The translations under genes were made by a program, and so were the position numbers. From Oceanicola sp. 22II-s10i (lineage in GTDB: Bacteria > Pseudomonadota > Alphaproteobacteria > Rhodobacterales > Rhodobacteraceae), in contig NZ_AQQU01000003.1 in NCBI RefSeq assembly GCF_002210105.1, forward strand, positions 62,001-126,000: a stretch of DNA of 64,000 nucleotides, given 5' to 3'. The notes below the pieces were generated by a model. The model was not told the DNA's origin. It made no database searches and saw nothing but the letters and a program-made list of their open reading frames with translations. Shown one piece after another: positions 54,160 through 56,251 of the stretch; position 1 is the stretch's first letter; each line of letters opens with the position of its first letter.

Positions 54160-54259
54160 ACGCGTGGACTGTCCGAACAGCTCGCTGGCGTTGCGGCCCG
54201 CGACCGGCTACGCCTGACGGACCTTGCACAGCCAGGCGGGTTTCGGGGAGTGCTTCGGT

Positions 54260-54952
54260 ATGCCAACGACACTGCGCATTTTCGTCCCCACGGCGATCCG
54301 GGCCTTCATGGACCGCATCGCGCCGCGTCTGGAGGCCGAGACGGGCGTGCGCCTCGTCCAGCTGGTCGATCTGAATCCGGTGATACCGGAACGGATCAGG
54401 GCCGGCGAACCCTATGACATCGGCCTGACCAATCCGGACTATGCGCAGGCGCTGATCGACGACGGGTTTGCAGTGCGCGACAGCCATCGTGCCTTCGGTC
54501 GCGTGTCCCTTGCGATCGCGCGAAAGGGCGGGTCGGATGGTCCGGTACTGGCGGAGCAGGACGATATCGAGGCGCTCCTGCGCGGCGCGAAGAGCATCGC
54601 TTACACAGGCGCGGGCACCAGCGGGCGCACGTATCTGGATGCGATGGCGCGCTTGGGGCTGAGCGATGTCGTGGTCCCGAAAAGCCATGCGCTTGAGGGG
54701 GGCGTGCCTGCGGCATCGGTCGCGGACGGGACATACGAGCTGGCGATTGCCCCGCTCACGACGGTGGTCGCCACGCCCGGTGTCGTTGCCGCAGCGGTGT
54801 TCCCGGACCACCTCGGGACACATATCGACATGTCCGCGTTTCGGGGCACTACATCATCTGCCGCCGCTAAAAGGGTGGTCGACGTCCTGACCGATCCCAA
54901 CCTCGACGACGACTGCGCGGCGGCGGGAATCTCGCGTTTCCACCTGATCTGA
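54260..54952 (+). CDS. Substrate-binding-like protein without signal peptide
   Basis: 230 residues with the ModA-type periplasmic-binding pattern (LRIFVPTAIRAFMDRIAPRLEAETGV, GEPYDIGLTNPDYAQALID, IAYTGAGTSGRTYLDAMARLGL). No signal peptide or lipobox is visible, so it is probably cytoplasmic or a ligand sensor. Start at 54260 has GGGGAG upstream. It is divergent from the SDR across a spacer that holds tandem repeats. Confidence 0.8.
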   Translation: MPTTLRIFVPTAIRAFMDRIAPRLEAETGVRLVQLVDLNPVIPERIRAGEPYDIGLTNPDYAQALIDDGFAVRDSHRAFGRVSLAIARKGGSDGPVLAEQDDIEALLRGAKSIAYTGAGTSGRTYLDAMARLGLSDVVVPKSHALEGGVPAASVADGTYELAIAPLTTVVATPGVVAAAVFPDHLGTHIDMSAFRGTTSSAAAKRVVDVLTDPNLDDDCAAAGISRFHLI

Positions 54953-54981
54953 GGGTGCCGGGTTCGACCCTCTGCGTTCAG

Positions 54982-55003
54982 GGCGGCGTGGCCAAACGCC
55001 GCC
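54982..55003 (+). terminator. Possible hairpin after the substrate-binding-like gene
   Basis: GGCGGCGT - GGCCAA - ACGCCGCC forms an 8-base stem, 30 bases after the stop codon. No T-run follows, so the terminator assignment is weak. Confidence 0.4.
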
Positions 55004-55009
55004 GCAATG

Positions 55010-55039
55010 AAAAACGCCCGCCGTCAGCGGCAGGCGTTT
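55010..55039 (-). terminator. Rho-independent terminator of infC
   Basis: On the minus strand a AAACGCCTGCCG / CGGCGGGCGTTT stem with a small CTGA loop (one T-G pair) runs into TTTTT, 24 bases after the infC stop codon. Confidence 0.8.
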
Positions 55040-55063
55040 GGCTTTGGCAAATGCCGGGAGCGG

Positions 55064-55606
55064 TTACTTGGCCGGGCCGATCATCATGACCATCTGGCGG
55101 CCTTCCATCTTCGGCATGTTCTCGACCTTGCCGATCTCCTTGACGTCTTCGGCCACACGTTCCAGCAGCTCGCGCCCGAGGTTCTGGTGCGCCATCTCGC
55201 GGCCGCGGAAGCGGAGCGTGACCTTGACCTTGTCGCCGCCCTCGAGGAAGCGCATGACGTTGCGCATCTTGACCTCGTAGTCGTGCACGTCGGTGTTGGG
55301 GCGGAACTTCACCTCCTTCACCTCGATGATCTTCTGCTTCTTCCGGGCTTCGGATTCGCGCTTCTGCTGTTCGTACTTGAACTTGCCGAAATCCATGATC
55401 TTGCAGACCGGGGGTGTGGCGTTCGGCGAGATCTCCACCAGATCCAGACCCGCTTCCTCGGCGAGGGCCATCGCCCGCGCCGGTGTCACAACACCGATGT
55501 TTTCGCCTTCCGCGCCGATCAGGCGTATCTCGTTTGCGCGGATTTTGTCGTTGACACGCGGGCCGGTGTCACGGGTAGGGGGGGCATTGTGGGGTCTGCG
55601 AGCCAG
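55064..55606 (-). CDS. infC: Translation initiation factor IF-3, probably initiated at CTG
   Basis: 180 residues if read from CTG at 55604-55606: [40 protein letters not shown], then the C-terminal domain. This gives the usual IF-3 length, with AAGGAA placed about 8 bases before the CTG. The first common start in frame is a GTG at 55489, which would remove the N-terminal 39 residues of the conserved domain. IF-3 in many bacteria limits its own translation by starting at a rare codon, which IF-3 itself discriminates against; the sequence here supports that. Confidence 0.92.
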
Positions 55607-55756
55607 TTTTTCGTTCCTTCGATGGTGGCGTGATGTGAGGGCGCAAGGTAGTCGCGCGGCCGTTATTCTTCAAGTCGCAAAACGGCGAAGAGTTCCTGGT
55701 CGAATCCCGTCCGTCGGTCGGACCGCCGGCTGTTCATGTCGGGATCGGGCGGCCCG

Positions 55757-56251
55757 TCACGTGACGGGCACGCCATGGGGATCGCTGGTGCCCTTGACGT
55801 ATTTGAAGGTCCCGACGCCGTGCGCGCAGAGCGTGCCGAAATCGTCGTGCACCTCGATCTCGGACGAGAAGATCTTGCGCCCCGCCGACTTGACGCGGGA
55901 GCTGACGTGCAGCGCCTCGCCCTTGGCCACGCCGACGAAGTTCGCGGTCAGCGACAGGGTCACGCATTGCCGGGTGCGGCCGGGGTAGGGGCACCAGCAG
56001 CCCGAGCCGGTGCCGACCGAATCCATCACGGCAGACAGCAGCCCGCCATGGGCCGTGCCCGCCTTGTTCAGAAGTTCGGGCCGCAGCGGCAGGACGCCCT
56101 TCACCCAGCCATCGCCCCGCGCCACGTAGCGCAGGCCGATCATCCGGTTGAAGCCGCCAAGGCGGAACATCTCGGGGTTCGGGCCGGGATTATCCTCGGT
56201 CGCACTGTCGATATACCCGTCCGGGTGGGCGGGCGTCCTTGCGTCATCCAT
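55757..56251 (-). CDS. PaaI-type hotdog thioesterase
   Basis: 164 residues. The hotdog core LLNKAGTAHGGLLSAVMDSVG carries the conserved HGG helix. It probably hydrolyses acyl- or aromatic-CoA. The start at 56251 is the ATG before DARTPAHPDGYID; ribosome-binding site is weak. It lies 26 bases after the CoA-transferase B gene on the same strand, so may share a transcript. Confidence 0.85.
   Translation of the reverse strand: MDDARTPAHPDGYIDSATEDNPGPNPEMFRLGGFNRMIGLRYVARGDGWVKGVLPLRPELLNKAGTAHGGLLSAVMDSVGTGSGCWCPYPGRTRQCVTLSLTANFVGVAKGEALHVSSRVKSAGRKIFSSEIEVHDDFGTLCAHGVGTFKYVKGTSDPHGVPVT

Follow-up and report, generated by a model that had tools for sequence, protein, structure and literature searches.

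Start Codon and Product of infC

In Oceanicola sp. 22II-s10i, comparison with related genomes makes it close to certain that translation of infC, the gene for initiation factor IF3, starts at a CTG codon (55604–55606, minus strand), which aligned with an ATA, ATC or CTG codon in relatives. Positions refer to the window, the whole stretch of 64,000 nt that was analyzed. The coding sequence (55064–55606, minus strand) extended from the CTG to a TAA stop at 55066–55064 and encoded a product of 180 amino acids. A domain search placed IF3_N at residues 18–87 and IF3_C at residues 94–178, and the IF3 of this genome therefore carries both IF3 domains. The product matched the NCBIfam infC equivalog with a score of 263 bits (cut-off 60), and the 5.1-Mb genome contained no other IF3 match at E ≤ 0.001.

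The preliminary description of this DNA had proposed the CTG as the start, with AAGGA(A) about 8 bases upstream and with no in-frame ATG, GTG or TTG before a GTG that cuts into the conserved domain. All of this was borne out, and relatives proved to keep the same start position and ribosome-binding site and to avoid canonical codons. A Shine-Dalgarno sequence, AAGGA (55615–55619, minus strand), preceded the CTG by a gap of 8 nt, and the codons after the CTG read GCT CGC AGA CCC CAC AAT. Upstream of the CTG the infC frame was open for 21 codons, with an in-frame stop at 22 codons. Neither ATG, GTG nor TTG was found in this frame between that stop and the GTG at 55487–55489 (minus strand), which was the first canonical in-frame codon (codon 40) and was judged not to be the start. 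In agreement with the limits of IF3_N, a start at codon 40 would cut into this domain. A sequencing slip at the CTG is unlikely because CTG was also present in three congeneric genomes.

Downstream of infC, a convergent gene for a solute-binding protein (54224–54952, opposite strand, PF13531) was found. In E. coli, by contrast, rpmI-rplT come immediately after infC and lie on its strand. A terminator-like hairpin with a T tail (55018–55030, minus strand) was located 3′ of infC; it was a hit of the consensus scan only, which found four such sites in 54950–55850 against 1.2 expected from shuffling. In the infC region, no sigma-70-like promoter was detected by consensus scan and no Rfam family scored above threshold, the two matches both being far under their gathering scores. 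The infC leader folded no more strongly than its shuffles (z = −0.38). IF3-like matches of less than 60% identity also occurred in 48 public phage records, some of which may be host DNA or prophage.

Conservation of the Start Region in Rhodobacteraceae

The start region was aligned for 102 loci (98 distinct sequences), which comprised the window genus (22 of 22 genomes) and the best 80 named Rhodobacteraceae loci and had been retrieved independently of the N-terminal stretch. This alignment, a check that had been set beforehand, showed a rare codon conserved at the same position: ATA in 90 loci, ATC in 8, CTG in 4 and a canonical codon in none (ATA 86, ATC 8, and CTG 4 among the distinct sequences). 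The CTG loci were those of the window and of G011, G015, and G020, all belonging to one genus, in which the frequency of CTG was 4/22. Leaders identical to those of the named species Pseudooceanicola antarcticus, P. nanhaiensis, and P. nitratireducens occurred in the set, so that the window genus is in all likelihood Pseudooceanicola.

Upstream of the start, only the AAGGA columns (−13 to −9) and the pair of bases directly preceding the start codon were above 0.9 bits in the 98 sequences. GGA at the 8-nt gap was present in 92 of the 98, two of which had a second GGA. A weakly conserved stretch was located at −22 to −19 (0.24 to 0.71 bits per column), reading CCAC in the window (55625–55628, minus strand) and CAAC in the family consensus. 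A larger set of 149 sequences agreed, with free third bases and again a weakly conserved CAAC-like stretch at −22 to −19; the N-terminal conservation in this set is partly by construction, since part of it was fetched by the ARRPHNA pattern.

The survey was then widened to 394 Rhodobacteraceae genomes, approximately one per genus, and 380 of them were read. Approximately 87% had ATA and 12% ATC, six had CTG (G000, G142, G303, G354, G400, and G402), and none had ATG, GTG or TTG. A conserved ATG or GTG start in close relatives, which the preliminary description had named as the observation that would count against the CTG, was hence seen in none of the 380.

The ARRPHNA pattern preceded by HTN was found in 334 of the 394 genomes. 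These are counts of pattern matches, which were taken as candidate IF3 loci, and a few may be due to chance because a reversed control pattern matched in 2 of the 394 genomes. In 47 genomes there was a match whose third base was not A (40 ATC, six CTG, and one CTT), and the CTT was rejected as a second match in G372 that was not IF3. With this match set aside, the other 288 genomes read HTA, with ATA in every case among the matches listed. No ATG, TTG or ATT preceded ARRPHNA in the 334 pattern-bearing genomes. Since the HTN pattern omits GTG, a protein search was run on the 60 genomes that lacked a match; it found IF3 in 50 of them, and 48 loci gave ATA in 41, ATC in five and a canonical codon in none. 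Two of the five ATC loci sit one codon off the alignment and were read by eye, and the two remaining loci gave no start codon, L169 being cut by a contig end and L207 being divergent. The IF3 fragments in G123 and G139 were excluded from the reading. In the 46 further loci from genomes without the pattern, the N-terminus varied (GRRPHNA, ARRPHHA, ARKPHNA, and others) and the start stayed ATA or ATC. As a control, the corresponding search for rpsL gave 131 matches in 149 family genomes, all of them with ATG (the pattern omits GTG). Taken at the level of sequence, the survey strongly supports a non-canonical infC start kept family-wide.

Starts Outside the Family and in Annotated Records

Of 144 matches in alphaproteobacteria that do not belong to the family, 108 were read by an automatic rule based on the Shine-Dalgarno sequence and position. 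They comprised ATA (77), ATC (18), ATT (4), TTG (1), ATG (1), and seven unassigned loci. By eye, the alphaproteobacterial loci L330, L339, L341, L344, and L345 were ATG-like, and L337, which was TTG by the rule, could also be ATC. Forty-six of 88 non-alphaproteobacterial matches gave ATC (22), ATT (13), ATA (8), and GTG (1; L427 of another class, by the rule), with one locus unassigned and one not realigned. CTG was assigned at none of the 154 non-family loci. As judged from these codons, infC starts at a non-canonical codon widely across the phylum, exceptions are few, and the unusual state is CTG. The few canonical-looking loci outside the family indicate that not every lineage needs a non-canonical start.

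It had been expected that automatic annotation would truncate the gene. This was not seen in three annotated alphaproteobacterial records, none of which has CTG: the annotated infC begins at ATA in Falsirhodobacter algicola and Azospirillum brasilense and at ATT in Sinorhizobium meliloti. The infC gene of Pseudorhodobacter turbinis also reads ATA, in a record without annotation. Several further entries listed no gene under the IF3 match, the gene table being incomplete. In the window genome, a gene caller limited to ATG, GTG, and TTG would drop 39 residues of IF3.

Alternative Starts and a Possible Feedback by IF3

Two other start sites were considered. If translation began at the GTG at 55489, which has in its favor that it is the first canonical codon in the frame, a conserved N-terminal part would be left untranslated. 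However, codons 2–10 were invariant as protein in the 98 distinct sequences, while their third bases varied, and IF3_N begins already at residue 18. A canonical codon at codon 40 was also not conserved, the first canonical in-frame codon ranging from codon 11 to codon 57 across the 102 loci. A start at this GTG is thus next to impossible. That the protein starts from another near-cognate codon just upstream, or by a frameshift from an upstream gene, is hardly less improbable. Some relatives do possess canonical codons farther upstream in the open frame, but many have none, and seven loci, including the CTG locus L019, carry a stop at codon −5 and lack any canonical codon from there to codon 1, so that a non-canonical start is forced there. 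Codon 1 was the sole position between codons −12 and 14 with a near-cognate codon in all 149 sequences, and its spacing to the Shine-Dalgarno sequence was nearly fixed.

With the CTG as the start, the best explanation, which we consider to be true in all probability, is that infC begins at CUG under negative feedback by IF3. The initiator tRNA would mispair with CUG at the first codon base, and the good Shine-Dalgarno sequence would hold the infC mRNA. IF3 on the 30S subunit would reject non-canonical codons such as CUG, so that efficient translation of infC would require a shortage of IF3. Plentiful IF3 would then lead to less infC translation and scarce IF3 to more, which would make a negative feedback loop. 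The start site, the conserved non-canonical starts, and the avoidance of canonical codons are read from the genomes themselves; the discrimination by IF3 at CUG and the feedback are suggested by analogy with known systems. A competing explanation accepts the CTG as the start and holds that it merely sets a low, constant level of IF3 without feedback, ATA, ATC, and CTG being interchangeable weak starts. The change of codon identity with persisting weakness would fit this, as would a leader that neither folds unusually nor matches an Rfam family above threshold, and CTG is unlike the AUH codons that dominate elsewhere, which speaks against the feedback. However, a low level could also be obtained with GTG, TTG or a poor Shine-Dalgarno sequence; 0 of 380 genomes had a canonical codon, and the Shine-Dalgarno sequence is good. 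The non-canonical start of E. coli is moreover tied to feedback (PMC5472188). A constant low level therefore seems rather unlikely, though clearly more plausible than either of the other start sites.

The proposed feedback by IF3 is a control mechanism of a known kind, and the CTG is its new part. According to PMC5472188, the infC gene of E. coli has an ATT start, with IF3 acting as a repressor of its own translation; Streptomyces infC starts with ATC, and its misannotation was reported. The window gene resembles that of E. coli in being an IF3 gene with a non-canonical start, and it differs in having CTG instead of ATT; feedback in the window is assumed by analogy. In Staphylococcus aureus, an AUA start of infC was found by retapamulin-assisted ribosome profiling and autoregulation was thought likely (PMC13009471). 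The starts in S. aureus and Streptomyces differ from AUG at the third base, whereas the window CTG differs at the first. CTG is named among the codons rejected by IF3 in PMC6199135, which cites other work for this. The same source describes aerR of Rhodobacter capsulatus, where mutation showed an internal CTG (Leu41) to be the start of a short AerR. This gene shares with the window infC a CTG initiator, an upstream ribosome-binding site, and the bacterial family; however, its CTG is an internal second start in a photoreceptor gene, whereas the window infC, which encodes a translation factor, has the CTG as its only start. By cryo-EM, a variant initiator tRNA on CUG pairs weakly at the first codon base (PMC11497404). 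The pifC gene of Rhodobacter sphaeroides, an IF3 gene of the same family as the window infC, was characterized by Babic et al. (1997), as cited in PMC6199135 and PMC2268962. No report of an infC gene with a CTG or CUG start was found in the openly licensed papers searched.

In the genomes read, the whole family avoids the normal infC starts, and the codon may change while still being one that IF3 would be expected to reject. The exchange of AUA for CUG in a few lineages suggests that selection keeps the codon class rejected by IF3 and not a particular codon.

A Rare Arginine Codon at Position 4

Codon 4 of infC is AGA (55595–55597, minus strand), a rare arginine codon that is kept in the family. 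Of 159 family loci, counted with near-copies, 146 had it, as did 93 of the 98 distinct sequences, and AGA occurred in at most five at the other tallied arginine positions of infC. In the control gene rpmH, the third codon (Arg) was AGA in 1 of 133 family matches, as counted by eye. In non-family alphaproteobacterial infC, AGA or AGG accounted for 58 of 120 arginine codons at codons 2–5 vs. 37 of 426 at codons 6–60.

When AGA was replaced in silico by CGC, CGT, CGG or CGA in 134 sequences, the fold of the 80-nt region was stabilized by a mean of 1.0 to 4.4 kcal/mol. There was little effect on how open the ribosome-binding site and start were; only CGT reduced this openness, by 0.029. Folding may thus contribute to the retention of AGA, at most in part.

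Origins of the CTG Start

The preliminary description had suggested that a CTG start in a roseobacter would be a variant of the self-repression that rare starts allow IF3, as with the ATT of E. coli. The reading as a rare start held, and self-repression would fit; as ATA is the norm of the family, CTG is only a rare, derived, and local variant, and the ancestral infC start codon of the family was probably AUA. In a quickly built infC tree with 181 sequences from the family, which was enriched in ATC and CTG by choice, nine CTG rows needed six changes and the starred branches forced at least three. In a tree of the rpoB region from 29 genomes, eight CTG rows needed three changes and the starred branches forced two; G354 was absent from this tree, having no rpoB match. 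Genomes G142, G303, G400, and G402 formed one clade (100/100), and G000, G011, and G015 grouped without firm support (68/98.8). A single clade of all four CTG congeners was not rejected in the rpoB region (p-AU 0.28). The sequence trees support at least two origins of CTG in Rhodobacteraceae, and a third is likely.

From ATA, two base changes lead to CTG and one to ATG, and the change from ATA to ATG was not seen in the family. We speculated that at least two lineages independently swapped AUA for CUG, so that the mismatch now lies at the first base instead of the third, that selection keeps rejection by IF3 and not the codon, and that the start region with the rare AGA at codon 4 may be a two-part brake on IF3 synthesis. 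This combined proposal is tentative and has slightly less than an even chance of being right. Between them, the CTG and ATA species form a natural experiment for finding out what IF3 senses, with a first-base and a third-base mismatch behind similar leaders in closely related species.

That differences in the initiator tRNA caused the switch to CTG was not supported, as the anticodon stem TCAGG/CCTGA was the same in the CTG genomes in which it was found (G000, G011, G142, G400, and G402) and in ATA congeners; by that pattern the tRNA was not found in G014, G015, G017, G020, G303, and G354. The anticodon stem of an initiator tRNA usually has three G-C pairs. In the genus tRNA with the TCAGG/CCTGA stem (e.g., G000:C1:215855-215890), an A-U pair replaces the first of them, in the CTG and the ATA genomes alike where the tRNA was found. 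The congeneric CTG genome G011 also encoded a second, different initiator-like tRNA (G011:C11:1276308-1276343) with the stem CGTGG/CCACG.
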